This document shows, one piece after another, positions 1,366 to 46,515 of a DNA stretch of 53,651 bases. The stretch lies in contig JBDUXZ010000039.1 in the NCBI GenBank assembly GCA_039944855.1, positions 1 to 53,651 of the forward strand. The letters are read 5' to 3'. A program made the translations under genes and the position numbers. The notes beneath the pieces were generated by a model. The model worked only from the letters and a program-made list of their open reading frames with translations, made no database searches and was not told the DNA's origin. Source of the stretch: Rhodothermales bacterium (GTDB taxonomy: Bacteria; Bacteroidota; Rhodothermia; Rhodothermales; JANQRZ01). The number at the start of each line of letters is the position of its first letter. Position 1 is the stretch's first letter.

Positions 1366-1965
1366 ATGTTTCTCGAATCGCCCGTCACCCTCATCCTCCT
1401 CGTCATCAACGTGCTCATCGGCGTGTACACGATGACGAGCGACCCGTCCCTCCTGGACCGGTGGTCGTTCAAGCCGTACCAGTTCCTGCGCGGGGAGTAC
1501 TGGCGCGCGCTCACGGCGGGGTTCGTCCATGTCGGCCTCGCCCACCTCGCCTTCAACATGATCACGCTCTACTTCTTCGGGCCGTGGATCGAGGGCCTGC
1601 TCGGGCCGGCGAAGTTTCTGGCGATCTACTTCGGCTCCGAGATCGCGGCGAACATGCTGACGCTGGCCAAGCACAAGGACAACCCGGCGTACTCGGCCGT
1701 CGGCGCGTCGGGGGCGATTTCGGGCGTGCTGTTCTCGTTCTGCCTGTTCCAGCCGTTCGCGATGCTCGGGGTGATGTTCATCATCCCGATGCCGGCGATC
1801 CTCTTCGCCGTGCTCTACGTCGTCGGCTCGATCTACGCCTCGCAGCAGGGCGGCGGGCGGATCGCGCACGAGGCGCACCTCGGCGGCGCGCTCGGCGGCG
1901 TCCTCCTGACCCTCCTCGTCTACCCCGACGCGCTCTCGATCTTCCTGCACCAACTCGGGCTCTAG
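1366..1965 (+). CDS. Rhomboid family intramembrane serine protease
   Basis: Rhomboids cut transmembrane substrates within the inner membrane using a Ser-His dyad. The 199-residue protein, counted from the ATG at 1366, has about six hydrophobic segments. The motif GASG (residues 113-116) supplies Ser115, and AHEAHLGGALGG in the last helix supplies the likely His171. HxxxAHLxFN at about residues 55-64 is the typical second-helix signature. A reading frame open from 1294 would add a non-conserved 24-residue N terminus. The gene meets the HAD gene tail to tail: the two stop codons overlap within CTAG at 1962-1965. The substrate is unknown. Confidence 0.88.
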   Translation: MFLESPVTLILLVINVLIGVYTMTSDPSLLDRWSFKPYQFLRGEYWRALTAGFVHVGLAHLAFNMITLYFFGPWIEGLLGPAKFLAIYFGSEIAANMLTLAKHKDNPAYSAVGASGAISGVLFSFCLFQPFAMLGVMFIIPMPAILFAVLYVVGSIYASQQGGGRIAHEAHLGGALGGVLLTLLVYPDALSIFLHQLGL

Positions 1966-2660
1966 CCGAGGAGCGCGTCGACCAGCGCCGTCCACTCGGC
2001 GAACACGAACGCCTCCGAGCGCGCGGGGTCGCCGCCGTACCACGCGACCTGCCAGCCCGCGCCGCGCCCGCCCTCCACGTCCGAGTGCAGCGAGTCGCCG
2101 ATGTAGAGGATCGCGCCGGGCTCGACCCCGGCAACGTCGGCCGCGTGCGCGAAGATCGCCGGATGCGGCTTCATCACGCCGACCTCCTCGCTGATGACGA
2201 CGGCGTCGGACCGCTCGCGGAGTACGGGAAAGCGGTCGAGCTTGGCGTGCTGCACGTCCGCAAAGCCGTTCGTGAGGAGGCCGACAGGGAAGCGGTCGGC
2301 GACGGCGTGAAAGGCGGCTCCGGCGCCGTCGGTCCAGCGCCAATGCGCGGCGTAGCGGTCGAGGTAGGTCTCGCCGAGGTGGGCGGCGTCGAGTCCGTCG
2401 AGCTCGAGCGCGGCATGGAGCCGCTCGAAGCGGAGGCGCTGCACGTCGTCGCGGCCGATCTCGCCGGCGGCGTAGCGTCGCCAGAGCGGGACGTTGTGCG
2501 CGTGGTAGGTCTCCTGCACGTGCGCGAGGGCGTGCCCGTCGAAGTGGGTGGCGAACGTCGAGCAGCAATCGGCGAGGGCCTCCCGCTCGGCGGCGCGGTG
2601 GTCGAGGAGCGTGTCGTCGAGGTCGAAGTAGACGAAGCGGACGGCGGATACGTCGAGCAT
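1962..2660 (-). CDS. HAD-superfamily hydrolase, YjjG-like phosphatase
   Basis: The 232-residue protein carries the HAD motifs in order: DLDDT at 13-17 (nucleophile Asp13 and acid/base Asp15), LLTNG (motif II), KPHP (motif III Lys) and IGDSLHSD (motif IV). The helical cap between motifs I and II and the overall length fit the YjjG subgroup of 5'-nucleotidases acting on (non-canonical) nucleoside monophosphates, but HAD substrate calls are weak. The reading frame is open to 3281; I used the ATG at 2660 because the HAD domain begins there and because it sits 2 bp after the stop of the GNAT gene, indicating translational coupling. Confidence 0.85.
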   Translation of the reverse strand: MLDVSAVRFVYFDLDDTLLDHRAAEREALADCCSTFATHFDGHALAHVQETYHAHNVPLWRRYAAGEIGRDDVQRLRFERLHAALELDGLDAAHLGETYLDRYAAHWRWTDGAGAAFHAVADRFPVGLLTNGFADVQHAKLDRFPVLRERSDAVVISEEVGVMKPHPAIFAHAADVAGVEPGAILYIGDSLHSDVEGGRGAGWQVAWYGGDPARSEAFVFAEWTALVDALLG

Positions 2661-2662
2661 CG

Positions 2663-3814
2663 TCACAGCGCTTTCTCCATCATCGCGTACTCCTTGTCGC
2701 GGACGGCGCCGAGCTTGTCGAGGGAGTTGACGAGCGGCATGTTCACGTCGAGCACCCAGCTCATCTCGCAGGCGTCGTAGCCGGCTTCGAGCCCGTTCTG
2801 GATCGTGGCGTCCACGAGGATCGCGTCGAAGCCGCGGCCGTGGTATTCGGGGAGCACGCCCATCAGCGGGAGCCGGATCTCGTAGACCGCGCCGAGCTTG
2901 GCGTAGGCCAGCAGCTTCGGCAGGCCGAGTGGGAAGAGCCGACCGCTCGGGACGTGGCGGAGCGCCTGGTTGAGGTTTGGGATCGAGATGGCGAAGGCGA
3001 CGGGTTCGCCCTCCATTTCGAGGATGTACACCAGTTCGGGCTCGATGACCTGTTTGAGGTCTTTGGCGAGGTGCTTGAACTCGTGCTCCGTCATCGGGAC
3101 ATGGCCCCAGTTCTGCGACCACGCCTCGTTGTAGATCCGCAGGATGGCGTCGGCGTCCTCCCAGAACCGGTCCACGTCGAGCGTGCGGAGGCTCAGGCCG
3201 GGGTTCCGCCGCATCACGATCTCGGCCCCGCGCCGCAGCTTGTCTTTGTTGACGTAGGCCTCGTGGACGTAGTACGCCCACATTGTCATCGCCCGCTCGA
3301 ACCCGTAGCGCTGGAGGAAGTCGACGTAGTACGGCGGGTTGTACGGCATCAGGATCGACGGCTCGCGGTCGAATCCCTCGACGAGCAGCCCTGCCGTGTC
3401 GTTCATCGACGGGTTGACGGGGCCGCGCACGCCGGTGTAGCCGCGCTCGCGCAGCCAGCCCGTCGCCGCGTCGAGGAGCGCCTCGGCCACGGCGTAGTCG
3501 TCGACCGATTCGAAGAAGCCGAAGAACGCGTTGTTGTCGGCGTACTTCTTCAGGTGCATCCCGTTGACGATCGCAGCGATGCGGCCGACGACCTCGCCGC
3601 CCGCATCTTCCGCCAGGAAAAGCTGGATCTCGCCGTGCTCGAAGAACGGGTTCTTCTTCGGGTCGAGCACCTTTGCCTGGTCCATCCGTAGCGGGGCGAT
3701 CCAGTGCCGGTTCTCCGCGTAGTGGCGGTACGGGAAGTCGATGAACCGGCGTTTGTCGCTGTTGGACGATACAGGCCGGACGGTGGCGCGGGAGGCGGTA
3801 TCGGCTTCGCTCAT
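2663..3814 (-). CDS. GNAT-fold acyltransferase, candidate bacterial ceramide synthase
   Basis: This 383-residue protein has a C-terminal GNAT-like half (residues about 200-370) with the region G-V-L-P-E-Y-H-G-R-G, which fits the acyl-CoA/ACP pyrophosphate loop, and an N-terminal half with a second degenerate GNAT-like domain. Proteins of this kind are usually labelled hypothetical N-acetyltransferases. It lies directly downstream of serine palmitoyltransferase, on the same strand. Bacterial ceramide synthases described in Caulobacter are GNAT-type proteins encoded near spt, so N-acylation of the sphingoid base is a reasonable inference, not a demonstration. The ATG at 3814 was preferred over an in-frame one at 3865, since the extra residues overlap a repeat element. 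Confidence 0.7.
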   Translation of the reverse strand: MSEADTASRATVRPVSSNSDKRRFIDFPYRHYAENRHWIAPLRMDQAKVLDPKKNPFFEHGEIQLFLAEDAGGEVVGRIAAIVNGMHLKKYADNNAFFGFFESVDDYAVAEALLDAATGWLRERGYTGVRGPVNPSMNDTAGLLVEGFDREPSILMPYNPPYYVDFLQRYGFERAMTMWAYYVHEAYVNKDKLRRGAEIVMRRNPGLSLRTLDVDRFWEDADAILRIYNEAWSQNWGHVPMTEHEFKHLAKDLKQVIEPELVYILEMEGEPVAFAISIPNLNQALRHVPSGRLFPLGLPKLLAYAKLGAVYEIRLPLMGVLPEYHGRGFDAILVDATIQNGLEAGYDACEMSWVLDVNMPLVNSLDKLGAVRDKEYAMMEKAL

Positions 3815-3849
3815 AGGGGGCGCGGTGGATGAGGGGCTACAAGAAACGA

Positions 3850-3879
3850 CGTAGGGGCACAGCACGCTGCGCCCCTACG
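3850..3879. repeat. REP-like palindrome, copy A
   Basis: Two 14-nt arms, CGTAGGGGCACAGC at 3850-3863 and GCTGCGCCCCTACG at 3866-3879, pair at 13 of 14 positions. A near-identical palindrome occurs at 36364-36395. It lies in the 86-bp gap between serine palmitoyltransferase and the GNAT gene. No T-run follows. It could act as a REP-type mRNA stabiliser or be a mobile palindrome; a transcript crossing from spt to the GNAT gene would contain this hairpin. Confidence 0.75.
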
Positions 3880-3900
3880 GGAAACGGTGGCGTGAGGCGG

Positions 3901-5238
3901 TCAGTCGTCGTGGTGCCCATTGACGCCGTTGCTGCCGTTCGCGCCGATGACGCCGTAGCGGAGGCCGATGCGCTTGAACGCGTCGAGGATGAAGTCGAGC
4001 TCCTCGTTCGTGTGCGTCGCCATGTAGCTCGTCCGCATGAGGGCCTGCCCCTTCGGCACGGCGGGCGGGACGACGGCGTTGACGAACACGCCCTCGTCGA
4101 GGAGGTCGTGCCAGAACTGGAAGCACGTCATCATGTCGCCGACGACGACGGGGATGATCGGCGTCTGGCTCGTCCACACGTTGAAGCCGAGGTCGCGGAA
4201 GCCGGCGCGCATGTAGTTCGAGATCTCGTCGAGGCGAGCGAGCCGCTCGGGCTCCTCGATCAGGATGTCGAGGCAGGCGAGGACCGTCGCCACGTTCGCC
4301 GGAGGCATCGAGGCGCTGAAGATGTGGGTGCTGGCCGAGTGGCGGATGTATTCGGTGACGGACTCGGAGCCGACGGCGAAGCCGCCGAGCGAGGCGAAGC
4401 TCTTCGAGAACGTGCCCGTCACGAGGTCCACTTCGTCCATCAGCCCGAAGGCGCTGGCCGAGCCGCGCCCGCCCTCGCCGACGACGCCGATCGCGTGCGC
4501 GTCGTCGAGCATGAGCGCTGCGCCGAACTCGTTCGCGAGGTCGACCAACTCGGGCACTTTGGCGAGCGTCCCGTTCATCGAGAACACGCCGTCGGTGACG
4601 ATGATCTTGCCGGCGTCGGGCCGCTCCTCGGCGTACTTCTCGAGGAGGAGCCGGAGGTGGCGCATGTTGTCGTGGCGGTACCGGACAGTCTCGGCGAGGC
4701 TGGCCTGCGTGCCGGCGACGATGCAGGCGTGGTTGTCCTTGTCCGAGAAGATCAGGTCGCCCTTCGACGCGACGCTCTGGATGACGCCCTGGTTCGTCAT
4801 GTAGCCCGTCGAGAAGAGGACGCAGGCGTCCTTCCCCATGAACTCGGCGAGGCGTTGCTCCAACTCCAGGTGGAGGTCGAGCGTGCCGTTGAGGAAGCGG
4901 CTGCCGGTGCAGCCCGTTCCGTAGTCGGCAATCGCCTGCTGCGCGGCTTCGACGACGCGCGGGTGGTTCGTCAGGCCGAGGTAGTTGTTCGACCCGGCCA
5001 TAATGACCTCGTGCCCGCGGATGACGGCCCGCGTGCCCTCCGCCACCTCGATGGGGCGGAAGTAGGGGTAGAGATCGGCGGCTTTGACCTGGGCGTAGTC
5101 GTTGTCCGGATCGAAGAACCGGCGGGTCTTGTCGAAGATGGAGCGGCTGTTGCGCTCGGCCGCCCGCTCGGCGGCGGCGGATTTCTCCACATCCGTCTCC
5201 ACACGTCGGGGTCCCCCCGTGAAATCAGGCAACGTCAT
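3901..5238 (-). CDS. spt: Serine palmitoyltransferase (alpha-oxoamine synthase)
   Basis: This PLP enzyme condenses L-serine with an acyl thioester to 3-ketosphinganine, the first step of sphingolipid synthesis. The 445-residue chain has the alpha-oxoamine synthase layout: YGTGCTGSR at about 106-114, His170 stacking on the cofactor, DDAHAIG at 245-251, and GTFSKSFASLGGF with the Schiff-base Lys279. The TFSKS form separates serine palmitoyltransferases from BioF and Kbl, which carry different residues there. The C terminus is an unusual Gly/Asn/His-rich tail. A GNAT acyltransferase lies downstream and a glycosyltransferase upstream. A promoter with a palindromic operator lies about 80 bp upstream. 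Kbl- or BioF-like activity is the less likely alternative. Confidence 0.88.
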   Translation of the reverse strand: MTLPDFTGGPRRVETDVEKSAAAERAAERNSRSIFDKTRRFFDPDNDYAQVKAADLYPYFRPIEVAEGTRAVIRGHEVIMAGSNNYLGLTNHPRVVEAAQQAIADYGTGCTGSRFLNGTLDLHLELEQRLAEFMGKDACVLFSTGYMTNQGVIQSVASKGDLIFSDKDNHACIVAGTQASLAETVRYRHDNMRHLRLLLEKYAEERPDAGKIIVTDGVFSMNGTLAKVPELVDLANEFGAALMLDDAHAIGVVGEGGRGSASAFGLMDEVDLVTGTFSKSFASLGGFAVGSESVTEYIRHSASTHIFSASMPPANVATVLACLDILIEEPERLARLDEISNYMRAGFRDLGFNVWTSQTPIIPVVVGDMMTCFQFWHDLLDEGVFVNAVVPPAVPKGQALMRTSYMATHTNEELDFILDAFKRIGLRYGVIGANGSNGVNGHHDD

Positions 5239-5315
5239 AGGCGCTCTCCAGGTCGCTAAAGTCTTCCGGCCGCACGATCTTTGCGAAGCTACGGCGCGGC
5301 ACCGGACGCGCCCGG

Positions 5316-5353
5316 CAAAATATAGTGAAACGCTTCCACCCGTTCGGAAGCGT
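5316..5353 (-). promoter_or_regulatory. spt promoter with overlapping palindromic operator
   Basis: On the minus strand the box TATATTTTG (5316-5324) is a good -10 / Bacteroidota TAnnTTTG match, about 78 nt before the spt start. Immediately upstream lies TGGAAGCGTTTCA (5326-5338), and the arms ACGCTTCC (5330-5337) and GGAAGCGT (5346-5353) form an 8-bp inverted repeat. The sites resemble LacI-family operators with a central CG, and related palindromes occur at 24045-24062 and 36934-36949. A regulator bound here would cover the promoter spacer. Confidence 0.55.
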
Positions 5354-5376
5354 GCCGTTGGGCCGCGCGAGTGCCT

Positions 5377-6447
5377 TCACGAGGCGAGAGCGAAGGTGCG
5401 GCGCGGGCAGACCGCTTCAATGTGATCGGCGGCGAGGGCGTTCCCGAGCGGCCCGCCCCCTGCGACGGGAGGCAGCACACGCAGAAACCGCTCGATCGCC
5501 GGTGCGGTGAGGCGGCCGAGCACGGCATCGCCCCGCCCGGAGCGGCGGAGGTAGAGGGCGTTGACGGCTTGCTCGAAGAACCCCCGGTTCGGCGCTGCGA
5601 GCACGGGCTTACCGAGGTGGAGCGCTTCGGAGAGGAGGGTGAACCCGGCCGTGCTGACGACGGCGCGGCACGCCGCGAGGTCGTCGACGAACCCCCGGCG
5701 CGACGCTGCGCGGAAGGTGAGGTTCGGGTAGGCTGCTGAGTCTGCGGGCGCGGGCACGTTGTAGACCACGAACGGCGCGTCCACGCGGCGCAACACGTCG
5801 AGCAGGCGGTCGGAGCCCTCGGGGTGGTTGACGTAGACGAGGAGGTGCGCGCCCCGACGCGGCGCGGCGTCGAGCACGTCGGGCCGGAGGATCGGCGGGA
5901 CGAGCGCGGCGTCGCTGCCCGCCCGATGCGGCGGAAAGAAAAACGACGGCACGACGACGCGGTCGAACAGCCCGCGCGGAGCCATCACGCCGATACCGAG
6001 CCGGGTGAGCGCGGCGCTCGCGGCGTAACGTAACGGGACGTGGCAGCGCGTCTCGGTTAGAATCTGCTGGTGGCTGAGCGCCACGACCGGAAGGCCGAGC
6101 CGCCGGGCCGCGCGCGGGGCGAACGGCTCGAAGTCGGCCACGACGAGGTCGGGGTCGAGGTCGTCGATCCGCTCGGTGAGGGCCTCCACAATCTCGGGCG
6201 TGCGGACGGCGAGCGGCGCGTTCTGCCACGCCGTCGCGAGGAGGCGGACGCGGTTGCCGCGGACGAGTTCGGCGGGGGCGGGGACGTCGAGCACGAATTC
6301 GCCCTGCCGGCGTAGGCGGTCGGCGGCGTCGGCACCGCAGCAGAAGAGGACGTCGTGTCCGCGCTGGCGGAGGGTGTGGGCGACGCCGAGCGCGCGGGAC
6401 GTATGGCCGCGGCCCTGCCCGTTGAGCGCGTAGAGGATGCGAGCCAC
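5377..6447 (-). CDS. MJ1255-type glycosyltransferase (GT-B fold)
   Basis: The 356-residue protein begins ILYALNGQGRGHTSRALG, the glycine-rich loop and GH signature of MurG/GT28-like transferases, and has the C-terminal nucleotide-sugar half with V-S-T-A-G-F-T-L-L-S-E-A-L (about 265-277) followed by the GKPVLAAP segment. It most resembles the MJ1255/VC2487 family of predicted glycosyltransferases. Such enzymes transfer a sugar from a UDP- or related donor to a lipid or polymer at the inner face of the membrane. It is immediately upstream of spt in the same direction, so glycosylation of a sphingolipid is possible but unproven. Donor and acceptor cannot be read from sequence. Confidence 0.8.
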   Translation of the reverse strand: MARILYALNGQGRGHTSRALGVAHTLRQRGHDVLFCCGADAADRLRRQGEFVLDVPAPAELVRGNRVRLLATAWQNAPLAVRTPEIVEALTERIDDLDPDLVVADFEPFAPRAARRLGLPVVALSHQQILTETRCHVPLRYAASAALTRLGIGVMAPRGLFDRVVVPSFFFPPHRAGSDAALVPPILRPDVLDAAPRRGAHLLVYVNHPEGSDRLLDVLRRVDAPFVVYNVPAPADSAAYPNLTFRAASRRGFVDDLAACRAVVSTAGFTLLSEALHLGKPVLAAPNRGFFEQAVNALYLRRSGRGDAVLGRLTAPAIERFLRVLPPVAGGGPLGNALAADHIEAVCPRRTFALAS

Positions 6448-6567: not shown

Positions 6568-7176
6568 TCAGAAATTCCATCGCAGCGAGGCCGTCGCGCC
6601 GGTCGGCGTCGGGGCGAGATGGATCGACAGGTCCTCGCTCACGTCGAAGTCGGCGAGGTGGGCGCTGACATAGGCGTCGAGCGCTTGGAGGGCGTAGGCG
6701 AGGCCGGAGAGCAGGATCGAGAAGTCGCGGTCGCGGCGGCTGGCGTCGCGGAGCGCCCGGCTCGACGCGGCGGGCAGCATCCCGATCGCGATCCACTCGT
6801 CCTCGAACTGCTCGAAGCCGTCGCACGTGCCGGGCGGCACGGTCGTGCCGGTGTCGCAGTCGGCGTAGATGGCGGCGCGGCGGTAGCGCACGGTCCGCAC
6901 GTGGTTGACGACGGCGAGCGTGACGAGCCCGCTGACCGCGGCCACGGCTACGCCCGCTCTGACGTAATCGCCGTTCGAGACCTGGCCCCAGCCGGGGACG
7001 AGCAGGCTGCGCCGGAGCGCGGTCTTCGGCGCGAGCGGAAGTGGGGCGAGGGGCGGCAGCGCCTCTGTCGTGCCCACGACCACGGGCGACGTGGCGACCG
7101 TATCCGGCGCGGTGACGGGCTGCGCCGCAGCCGCGTGGCAGAGGGCCAGGGTCAGCAGCAGCGCCGCGCGGCGCAC
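6568..7176 (-). CDS. DUF5683 membrane/secreted protein
   Basis: About 202 residues from the GTG at 7176, which lies 1 bp after the parB stop codon and has GGAG upstream; this start also gives a clean signal peptide (RRAALLLTLALCHAAAAQ). A longer reading from a GTG at 7206 would overlap parB. The motif LVPGWGQ plus a downstream Tyr and hydrophobic helices are the hallmark of DUF5683, a family commonly placed behind parA and parB in Bacteroidota. The role is unknown; a cell-envelope function linked to chromosome segregation or division is only suggested by context. Confidence 0.82.
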   Translation of the reverse strand: MRRAALLLTLALCHAAAAQPVTAPDTVATSPVVVGTTEALPPLAPLPLAPKTALRRSLLVPGWGQVSNGDYVRAGVAVAAVSGLVTLAVVNHVRTVRYRRAAIYADCDTGTTVPPGTCDGFEQFEDEWIAIGMLPAASSRALRDASRRDRDFSILLSGLAYALQALDAYVSAHLADFDVSEDLSIHLAPTPTGATASLRWNF

Positions 7177-7177
7177 C

Positions 7178-8143
7178 CTACCGCTCCAGCAGGAGGTCGA
7201 GGACACGCTCGAGGTCGTCCTGCGAGTAGTACTCGATCTCGATCTTGCCGCTCCCGCTGTCCTTGTGGCGGATCTTGACCTGCGTGCTCAGCCGGTCGCG
7301 GAGAGCCCCCGTGAACTCGCGGAGCTGGAGGGCGTCGCGGCTGGGCGTCGTCACGGCCTCGGTGGCATTCTCGACGGCGTCCTCGGCCGGGGCGTCGGCG
7401 GCGTCGAGCCGCTTGCGGTACTCGCGGATGAGCTGCTCCACCTGCCGGACGGAAAGCTCGTTGGCCACGATCTCGCGGTAGAGCTCGAGCTGGGCGTCGT
7501 CGTCCTCGATCGAGACGAGCATCCGAGCGTGGCCCGACGTCAGCGTGCCGTCGCGGAGCGAGGCGAGGACGGGCGGCGGGAGGCGGAGGAGGCGGAGCGT
7601 GTTCGCCACCGTCGAGCGGTTCTTGCTGACCTTCTTGGCGACCTCCTCCTGCGTCAGCCCGCACTCGTCGATGAGGCGGAAGTAGCCGAGGGCCACCTCG
7701 ACGGGGTTGAGGTTCTCGCGCTGGATGTTCTCGACGATCGCCATCTCCAGCATCGCCTCGGTGTCGGCCTCGCGGACGTAGGCCGGCACACGCGTGAGCC
7801 CGGCGCGCTTAGCGGCACGGAGGCGGCGCTCGCCCGAGATGATCTCGAACCGGCTGTCGCCGAGGGAGCGGACGGTGATCGGCTGGATGATGCCGAGCTG
7901 GCTGATCGACGCGGCGAGCTCGTCGAGGGCCTGCTCGTTGAACGTCTCGCGCGGCTGGTACGGGTTCGGCCGGATCGCCTCCACATCGAGCTCGGCGACG
8001 CGGCCGAGCAGGCGGACGCGGTCCTCGAAGTTGTAGAGCTTCGGGCCGGAGGCCTGGCCTTCGCGCGCGTCCTCGCTCCGCTCCGAGGTGGAGGGGAGCA
8101 ACGCGCTGAGTCCTTTGCCGAGCGCTGCTTTCTTCGTCGCCAT
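7178..8143 (-). CDS. parB: Chromosome partitioning protein ParB
   Basis: ParB binds parS sites, loads CTP and slides as a clamp to build the partition complex near the origin. The 321-residue protein starts with a Lys/Gly-rich segment ending in LGKGLSALL (ParA-stimulating), then IRPNPYQPR (box I), GERRLRAAK (the CTP-binding GERR motif), IVENIQRENLNPVE, a helix-turn-helix (LTQEEVAKKVSKNRSTVAN) and a C-terminal dimerisation domain. It follows parA by 35 bp in the same direction. No parS-like 16-bp palindrome was found in the window, so its sites must lie elsewhere or diverge. Confidence 0.96.
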   Translation of the reverse strand: MATKKAALGKGLSALLPSTSERSEDAREGQASGPKLYNFEDRVRLLGRVAELDVEAIRPNPYQPRETFNEQALDELAASISQLGIIQPITVRSLGDSRFEIISGERRLRAAKRAGLTRVPAYVREADTEAMLEMAIVENIQRENLNPVEVALGYFRLIDECGLTQEEVAKKVSKNRSTVANTLRLLRLPPPVLASLRDGTLTSGHARMLVSIEDDDAQLELYREIVANELSVRQVEQLIREYRKRLDAADAPAEDAVENATEAVTTPSRDALQLREFTGALRDRLSTQVKIRHKDSGSGKIEIEYYSQDDLERVLDLLLER

Positions 8144-8178
8144 GGGGGTAGAGAGTGAGCCGGGGGGAGCGGGTCGCG

Positions 8179-9120
8179 TTACCGCGAGGGGGAGTCGGAG
8201 TGGAGGACGGAGTCGAGGTCACCGCTGGGCTGCGGCACGACCGCCGGGACGACGGGGCCGGCCGTCGGGTGCGCCGCCGTGCCGTTCCCCGCGCGCAGGC
8301 CCGCTGCGACGGGGCCGTTCGGGCGCCGCGCCCCCGCCTCCTCTTGCTGGAGGTACGTCTTGTTCGCGGTGATCACCTCTTTGGCGAGGCCGATGTAGTT
8401 GCGCGCGCCGATCGAGGTCGCCTCGTAGAGCAGCACCGGCTTGCCGAAGCTCGGGGCCTCGCTGAGCCGGACGTTCCGCTGGATGACGGTCTTGAACACC
8501 TTGTCGCCGAAGTAGCGGCGGACCTCGGCGGCGACCTGCTTCGAGAGGCGCAGCCGCGAGTCGTACATCGTCAGGAGCACGCCTTCGATCTCAAGACCGG
8601 GGTTGAGGTGCTGGCGGACGATCTTCACCGTGTTGAGCAACTGGCCGAGCCCTTCGAGCGCGAAGTACTCGCACTGCACGGGGATCACGACCGAGTCGGC
8701 AGCGGTGAGGGCGTTGAGCGTGAGGAGGCCGAGCGACGGCGGGCAGTCGATAACGACGAAGTCGTACTTCCGGCGGGCGTTCGTGATGGCCCGCTTCAGC
8801 ACGCGCTCGCGCTCCATCACGTCGATCATCTCGATCTCCGCGCCGACGAGGTTGATGTGGCTCGGGACGACGTCGAGGAACGGCATCTCCGTCTGGCAGA
8901 CGGCGTCTTCGAGCGAGGTGTCGCCCGTGAGGACCTCGTACGTCGAGAGCTCGACGGCGCGCTGGTCCACGCCGACGGCGGACGTGCCGTTAGCCTGTGG
9001 GTCGATGTCGAGGAGCAGCGTGGGGTGCTCCGTAGCCGCGAGGGACGAGGCGAGGTTCACGGCGGTCGTGGTTTTCCCGACCCCGCCTTTCTGGTTCGCT
9101 ACCGCGATAACCTTCCCCAT
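8179..9120 (-). CDS. parA: Chromosome partitioning ATPase ParA (Soj)
   Basis: The 313-residue ATPase drives segregation of ParB-parS complexes by ATP-dependent, DNA-bound dimer gradients. The deviant Walker A motif KGGVGKTT lies at residues 11-18, Walker A' [11 protein letters not shown] at about 40-50, and the [11 protein letters not shown] segment gives Walker B. The frame is open to 9264, but homology begins exactly at the ATG at 9120. The C terminus has a Pro/Ala-rich extension beyond the family core. A TTGCGA-17-TATATT promoter precedes it at 9235-9264; parA, parB and DUF5683 are packed tightly and should form one operon. Confidence 0.96.
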
Positions 9121-9425
9121 GGCCGCGCCTGCTGTGCGTGGTGATCTGTCCGGTGGCACCCGATGCCGGAGGGCATAAACGGGGGCGGTGGCTCTGTGTC
9201 TGCCGCCGCGCCGACCCGCTCGGGTGTGCGCCGCCAATATACCCGCGGCCCTCCCCCTTCGCAAGCGAAGACAGGCCGGAGACGCGGGCGAGAGCGGTCG
9301 CTGTTCGCCCCGCCGTAACGCGTTAAGTTCGGTCTGTTTCCCAGTCGTGCCGGGCCACTGTTTGCGGGGTCCAGACCGCGCGTACCTTCCGATTCTCGTT
9401 CGTCTCCCACACCCTCGTCCCGCCC
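9121..9425. promoter_or_regulatory. Divergent promoter region, parA and helicase gene
   Basis: This 305-bp gap holds no gene. On the minus strand TTGCGA (9259-9264) and TATATT (9236-9241) are separated by 17 bp and drive parA. On the plus strand TTTGCG (9361-9366) lies 16 bp before TACCTT (9383-9388), which would drive the helicase gene starting at 9426. A small inverted repeat, TTCGC-AA-GCGAA, overlaps the parA -35 box. No parS-like 16-bp palindrome was found. Confidence 0.65.
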
Positions 9426-45191: not shown

Positions 45192-46379
45192 TCAGTTGAG
45201 GTCGAGGCCGGCGCACTCGGCGGCTTCCTGCGCCTTCTCGCCCTGGCCGAGAGCGGCGTAGACCTGGAAGAGGGCGCGGCAGATGTCGGCGGAGTCCTCG
45301 CCGGCAGCCTCGGTGAGGGCGCGAGCGCGCTCGAGGTTCGGCATCGCCTGACCCAGCAGCGACGTCCGTTCGGCGATCGCCGCGTCTACCTCGGCCTGGC
45401 TCGCGCCGGCGTCTTCGAGTTCGCCGACGCGCTTGTTGAAGCTCGCGGCCTTGTTCTGGTAGGCGGCGCCGAGGTTGTAGAACGCATTCGCGTTCTGGGC
45501 GTCGAGTTCCGTCGCCACCATGAGTTGCTCGGCGGCCTCGTCGTACCGCTCGGCCTGGAGGAGGAGGGAGCCGTAGTTGTAGCGGTAGAGCGGGTTCTCC
45601 GGATCGGCCGCGATCCGGGCGTTGTAGGCGTCGATGGCGCGGTCGGTCTGGCCGGCACGGACGTAGGCGTTGAGGATTTCGGTCTGCAGCTCCTCGTTGT
45701 CGGGGAAGGCGGCCTGGCCCTGCTCCAGCACGCCGAGGGCATCGGCGGCGCGGTCCTCGGAAGAGAGGTAGATCCGGCCGAGGTAGATGTACGCCTCGGC
45801 GCTGTTGGCGCCCTTGTCGATCGCCATCTGGAGCGGCACGGCGGCGTCGGCGGAGTTCCCGGCGGCGAGGTAGGCGAGACCCTGGTTGAGGAAGCCGGCC
45901 GAAGAGTCGGGGAGGATCACCGTGGCGTTGTTGAAGGAGGCGGCGGCCTCGTCGTAGGCGCTCGGGTCCTCGGCGGCGCGGCGGAAGGCGCGGGCTCCGT
46001 AGTTCATCTCCGCGCCCCAGGCCACCTGCAGCCGGTTCTCGATTTCGGCGGGGGCGTGGCCGAGTTCGAGCGAGCGGTTGTACGCCTGCGTCATCTCGGC
46101 GAGGAGGTCGGCGCGCTGGGAGGCGTCGTCCATCGCTTCGGCCTTCATCCGGTAGGCCTCGCCGCGGATGAAGTAGGCCTCCTCGTTGTCGGGATCTGCT
46201 TCGATGGCGGCGGCGGTGAGTTCGAGGACGCGGTCGTAGTCCTGGTTCTTCATCTCGAGCTTCGCCCCGGTCACGTTCGGGTCGCTGCCGCAGCTATCGG
46301 CCCCGGCGACGAGGAAGGCGAGGGCGAGGAGGCCGAGCGCGAAGGGGAGGCGGACAGCGGGCATGCGGGAGAGGTCCAT
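45192..46379 (-). CDS. TPR-repeat lipoprotein
   Basis: The 395-residue protein has a membrane-targeting N terminus (LPFALGLLALAFLVAGADSC); the Cys context A-D-S-C is an imperfect lipobox, so anchoring is likely but not certain. Then come about seven tetratricopeptide repeats: ILPDSSAGFLNQGLAYLAAG, DKGANSAEAYIYLGRIYLSS, NPLYRYNYGSLLLQAERYDE and NANAFYNLGAAYQNKA among them. TPR arrays bind partner proteins at the envelope. A longer frame to 46412 exists; the ATG at 46379 fits best, with 46364 as alternative. Partner unknown. Confidence 0.88.
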   Translation of the reverse strand: MDLSRMPAVRLPFALGLLALAFLVAGADSCGSDPNVTGAKLEMKNQDYDRVLELTAAAIEADPDNEEAYFIRGEAYRMKAEAMDDASQRADLLAEMTQAYNRSLELGHAPAEIENRLQVAWGAEMNYGARAFRRAAEDPSAYDEAAASFNNATVILPDSSAGFLNQGLAYLAAGNSADAAVPLQMAIDKGANSAEAYIYLGRIYLSSEDRAADALGVLEQGQAAFPDNEELQTEILNAYVRAGQTDRAIDAYNARIAADPENPLYRYNYGSLLLQAERYDEAAEQLMVATELDAQNANAFYNLGAAYQNKAASFNKRVGELEDAGASQAEVDAAIAERTSLLGQAMPNLERARALTEAAGEDSADICRALFQVYAALGQGEKAQEAAECAGLDLN

Positions 46380-46515
46380 GATGGTGTGGCGGATAGGTTG
46401 CAAAGGGGGCACAGAGGGGAGGCCGGTGGGCAGGCCGGGCCAAAATCGGCCGGTGCGTAGAGTGGGCGGGACGCACGTCAGGGTGCCTATTCCGGTCGAC
46501 TTTGTAAGCTAACAC

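Follow-up and report, generated by a model that had tools for sequence, protein, structure and literature searches.

A serine palmitoyltransferase-type synthase and a bCerS-family tandem GNAT in a predicted ceramide biosynthesis locus of a Rhodothermales bacterium

A predicted ceramide pathway in a little-studied lineage

As judged from its sequence, the locus described here is a well-supported instance of a pathway already established in other bacteria, in a lineage that has received little study. It lies in the window (the whole stretch of DNA that was analysed, 53,651 nucleotides), and we consider it very probable that the core formed by SPT, bCerS and CerR is a bacterial ceramide pathway, an estimate given for this core apart from the GT and HAD genes beside it. 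The bacterial ceramide pathway itself is known (Stankeviciute et al.; Olea-Ozuna et al.). What the sequence shows is the order of the genes, the families to which they belong, their conservation together, and that the genome encodes all three predicted core enzymes. The preliminary description had read the locus as a candidate compact sphingolipid module, which proved largely right: the SPT and N-acyltransferase assignments agree with the protein families, the diagnostic residue, the position in the trees and the similarity to orthologues of Caulobacter CC_1154. A predicted complete bacterial ceramide pathway is thereby placed in the class that holds Rhodothermales and Balneolaceae relatives. 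A search of the literature on Rhodothermota sphingolipids found no sphingolipid paper for the class.

The four genes had been described as a series on the minus strand, and all four open reading frames were recovered, in the order GT, spt, GNAT, HAD. The genome is a 4.6-Mb draft in 41 contigs. Among named organisms, MAGs or strains of Rhodothermaceae, Salinivenus and Rhodothermus are nearest to it, in keeping with Rhodothermota. The relevant features are as follows.

5377–6447, minus strand: GT, glycosyltransferase PF13528, MJ1255/VC2487-like, 356 aa, GTG start (Pfam, 240 bits)
3901–5238, minus strand: spt, serine palmitoyltransferase-type α-oxoamine synthase (predicted), 445 aa (PF00155, 184 bits)
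2663–3814, minus strand: tandem-GNAT N-acyltransferase, bCerS family (predicted), 383 aa (PF00583, 25 bits)
1962–2660, minus strand: HAD-superfamily phosphatase, 232 aa (PF00702, 71 bits)
6568–7206, minus strand: DUF5683 protein (Pfam), a flanking gene syntenic within the order and excluded from the module count
Contig 19, 45538–46515, minus strand: CerR-type extended-SDR reductase, 325 aa, Pfam Epimerase (orthologue search of the same genome)

The intergenic gaps from GT to HAD are 138, 86 and 2 bp, the HAD gene starting 2 bp past the GNAT stop. GNAT and HAD thus look translationally coupled, and spt may have its own promoter. The genes parA-parB-DUF5683 (6568–9264 in the window) stand immediately upstream of the spt region in much of the order. 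A rhomboid protease gene is found on the other side of the module, at 1294–1965, and is present in the loci of many relatives as well.

The α-oxoamine synthase is assigned to the serine palmitoyltransferase type

The TFSKS lysine motif reported for spt is present, its PLP lysine being K279 (codon 4402–4404), and DDAH at residue 245 corresponds to the PLP-binding Asp/His. The best match in a PDB sequence search was the Sphingobacterium SPT 3a2b (386 bits); KBL and AONS entries scored 287–288 bits and the CFAT 28eh 231 bits. The top NCBIfam model was SerpalmtaseCFB, with 478.8 bits, under its curated cut-off of 640 bits, which is an annotation threshold and not a defining property of SPT. Since this cut-off was reached by none of the 36 genomes tested and by a single one of 14 controls, we judge the model to be narrow.

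A further indication comes from one residue. SulA has Lys281 where SPT carries Ala, and its PLP lysine is Lys251 (Radka et al., PMC9304779); the diagnostic site therefore lies 30 residues beyond the PLP lysine. The window spt has Ala309 at this site, 30 past K279, and not the Lys of CFAT/SulA. An alignment of 75 α-oxoamine synthase (AOS) sequences, duplicates among them, had Ala at the site in the SPT-type rows from proteobacteria, Parabacteroides and Rubrobacter, Asn in KBL, Thr in BioF, and Lys in a separate CFAT-like clade. The corresponding tree contains, for each of the Ala, Asn and Lys sets, a branch that parts the set from all other rows (SH-aLRT 79, 100 and 100, respectively), and the window spt was placed among the Ala rows, with moderate branch support (79). 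A KBL or BioF reading was ruled out by the Asn or Thr of these enzymes at the diagnostic site and by their different clades. The only other AOS match in the same genome carries Thr at this position, and thus no CFAT was found there. By its best solved relative, its Ala residue and its place in the tree, the spt product is a predicted enzyme of the serine palmitoyltransferase type.

In two genomes of family f12, same class (G081 and G089; loci L225 and L226), an SPT-type synthase (Ala) and a CFAT-type synthase (Lys, FAKS) occur together, and sphingolipids and sulfonolipids may therefore both be made in a single organism.

The tandem GNAT is related to bacterial ceramide synthases

Searches by tblastn against plasmids recovered full-length relatives of the window GNAT within spt clusters. 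Identity over the full length was 38% for Rubrobacter, 34% for Sphingomonas, 39% for Roseomonas, 33% for E. coli YghO and 34% for Aureispira, and the alignment with these relatives contains 30 invariant columns. Kinship to Caulobacter CC_1154 (bCerS) was traced through published orthologues, namely YghO and the Sphingomonas gene: CC_1154 is equated with yghO (ECD_02850), Swit_3908 and S. paucimobilis DRN02_007910, and is needed for dihydroceramide (PMC9386255, Fig. 9). The Sphingomonas homologue is taken to occupy the position of DRN02_007910 because the gene order of S. parapaucimobilis (L039), which runs reductase, ACP, spt, ATP-binding protein, lptF, lptG, desaturase, N-acetyltransferase, fits the S. 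paucimobilis tags (epi 007875, acpR 007880, aca 007910; PMC9386255). With a tag step of five, there are eight genes from epi to aca, and the spacing matches this order.

The AlphaFold model of the GNAT (pLDDT 89.5, pTM 0.88) has its best PDB fold matches among tandem GNATs, namely MAB_4324 and the clavulanic-acid tandem GNAT, which bears out the two-domain architecture given in the preliminary description. Pfam PF00583 covers the C-terminal half only (25 bits). In this C-terminal repeat, HGRGFD at residue 325 is a degenerate GNAT acyl-CoA loop, which suggests that the acyl donor binds the C-terminal repeat. A PDB sequence search with the GNAT gave zero matches, and NCBIfam contains no model that matches either it or YghO. 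In a quick tree of 130 rows, whose short loci were not scorable for SPT, the window protein fell inside the spt-linked set, rather than clustering with unrelated acetyltransferases, and paralogues of other Bacteroidota formed separate clades. Homology, fold, tree and spt linkage thus support assignment of the GNAT to the bCerS family of N-acyltransferases, as had been proposed; the activity itself is predicted.

The same genome also encodes a remote GNAT paralogue with 25% identity (L064, G000:C7:2361-3152). Two more tandem-GNAT clades (L238–L257) come from other Bacteroidota and family f12, with no SPT within their short flanks. Several of these proteins are from genomes with CFAT and could N-acylate other lipids. 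A link between the GNAT paralogues and CFAT was considered and set aside: the genes are not adjacent, and genome G053 has CFAT without a GNAT match, which makes the association imperfect.

The spt-GNAT pair is conserved across phyla

Gene neighbourhoods were compared across the class, and the close pairing first seen in the window held: SPT lies near GNAT on the same strand in 18 of 20 loci, one of these 18 with a 6-kb insert. In two loci of family f3 (L055, L057), GNAT and SPT are both present, unlinked. SPT was near GNAT in 63 of 80 named loci from about a dozen phyla, and a CerR-like gene was found in 39 of the 80. These loci come from Rhodothermota, Balneolota, Ignavibacteriota, Calditrichota, Zixibacteria, Gemmatimonadota, Planctomycetota, Acidobacteriota, Myxococcota and others; Myxococcus, where SPT is near GNAT, is named as a sphingolipid producer (PMC9278070). 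Matches to the GNAT were found in 192 of 198 genomes of the phylum.

In a survey of the three core genes over a hand-picked set of 36 genomes, SPT, GNAT and CerR all gave strong matches in each of the 22 class genomes, and three f13 genomes had none of the three. Genome G024 had no GNAT match; its SPT and CerR genes share a contig of 4 kb, which breaks off shortly after spt, and the absence may therefore be an assembly gap. The four-gene arrangement is not due to chance, since it is conserved over many genomes. The pair is present in cultured relatives, e.g. Salinivenus lutea and Rhodohalobacter, which makes the prediction accessible to lipidomics.

Other readings of the pair were also considered. 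That the GNAT is an unrelated acetyltransferase, a chance neighbour of spt, agrees with the generic and weak domain assigned by Pfam; it is scarcely credible in view of the linkage to spt over about a dozen phyla, the full-length homology to the CC_1154 orthologues and the tree position. It is equally improbable that the locus is a sulfonolipid module, in which the AOS enzyme would take cysteate (CFAT/SulA) and the GNAT would acylate capnine. Sulfonolipids are known from Bacteroidota, and within the class other families do possess CFAT-like genes, but the window enzyme has Ala at the diagnostic site and lies outside the Lys clade; the CFAT 28eh scored far under SPT, and the second AOS match of the genome has Thr. 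A CFAT reading of spt was accordingly discarded on the residue and the tree. Somewhat less remote, though still unlikely, is a related N-acyl lipid built from another amino acid, e.g. alanine (1-deoxyceramide) or glycine, since serine specificity is not fixed by sequence and 1-deoxyceramides have been reported from Bacteroidota (PMC11334938). However, the window spt groups with SPT-type enzymes that share the diagnostic Ala, including those of lineages with assayed SPTs (PMC9386255).

The predicted CerR reductase is encoded on another contig

The ceramide reading calls for a ketoreductase, which the preliminary description had expected outside the cluster; it was found on contig 19. The spt-linked oxidoreductases of Aureispira and Rubrobacter, used as queries, both led to this same gene in the genome; with the Aureispira query it scored 222.7 bits, and the second-best match 70.6 bits. 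The protein is 43% identical to the Balneolaceae-type CerR that adjoins spt and 27% identical to the product of E. coli epi, and its orthologues in relatives stand beside spt. No signal peptide was evident on it. Caulobacter CerR is periplasmic; the two proteins may differ in cellular compartment, and the pathways accordingly in which step comes first.

In the proposed pathway, SPT would form 3-ketosphinganine from an acyl thioester and serine. The tandem-GNAT bCerS would then N-acylate 3-ketosphinganine, probably with acyl-CoA as donor, and the contig-19 CerR would reduce the 3-keto group to give dihydroceramide, acylation presumably preceding reduction. The upstream GT would probably add a sugar to dihydroceramide, and the HAD protein may serve as an accessory phosphatase.

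Comparison with known sphingolipid loci

The same three enzyme families (SPT, tandem GNAT and extended SDR) are found in Caulobacter crescentus (CC_1162, CC_1154, CC_1164), in the E. coli B yghO cluster and in Sphingomonas. Unlike in Caulobacter and Rhodobacteria, the window spt has no AcpR or AasR gene beside it, spt and bcerS are nearly adjacent, and cerR lies on another contig and lacks an evident signal peptide. The Rubrobacter radiotolerans plasmid and Myxococcus clusters have spt followed by GNAT on the same strand, as in the window (SPT identity 46% and 49%, respectively). However, a reductase gene (an NAD(P) oxidoreductase in Rubrobacter) directly follows GNAT in both, and no counterpart of GT or HAD was detected in the Myxococcus loci. 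The Bacteroides-type genes (SPT BT_0870, reductase BT_0972) share the SPT family, the Parabacteroides SPT being 47% identical, but their spt is not clustered with other sphingolipid genes.

Within the class, a further comparison is the Balneolaceae cerR / GT4-GT4-spt-bcerS locus, where SPT is 66–68% and GNAT 38–46% identical to the window proteins. It shares with the window the presence of glycosyltransferase genes upstream of spt. However, two GT4 genes (PF00534/PF13439) replace PF13528, a divergent cerR lies alongside, and no HAD gene was detected.

The glycosyltransferase and HAD genes are accessory

The GT gene is found upstream of spt in 7 of the 20 class loci, two of these 7 belonging to a different order, and in 5 loci outside this set; the HAD gene lies downstream of GNAT in 12 of the 20 and in 11 further loci. 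Both genes are accessory, not universal. The nearest NCBIfam models of the HAD protein are the YjjG/YfnB nucleotidases, below cut-off, and it could act on a nucleotide or on a phosphorylated lipid or sugar.

GT and HAD may instead be bystanders held in place by local synteny, outside the sphingolipid module, to which we give slightly less than an even chance. GT is missing from 13 and HAD from 8 of the 20 class loci, and the nearest HAD models are nucleotidases. Moreover, parA-parB-DUF5683 is common upstream over much of the order, so that synteny by descent is a concern: neighbours may persist through descent alone. Against this, a family of a different order (f10; L058, L059) has lost parA, parB, DUF5683 and the rhomboid gene, but keeps GT-spt-GNAT-HAD in order on one strand. 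In addition, 11 Balneolaceae-type loci have two GT4 genes, unrelated to the window GT, directly upstream of spt, and two more loci have one of them. Because unrelated glycosyltransferases recur beside spt-bcerS, a glycosylated ceramide is our best guess for the product of the GT, at about even odds. The two lineage-specific sets of glycosyltransferases are candidate ceramide glycosyltransferases. A bolder reading is rather doubtful: GT-spt-bcerS-HAD would be an ancestral Rhodothermota glycosphingolipid operon, with the PF13528 GT a novel ceramide glycosyltransferase and HAD dephosphorylating a lipid or sugar intermediate.

The divergent cerR / GT4-GT4-spt-bcerS layout is itself conserved, in L062 and in the Balneolaceae-type loci among L153–L199.
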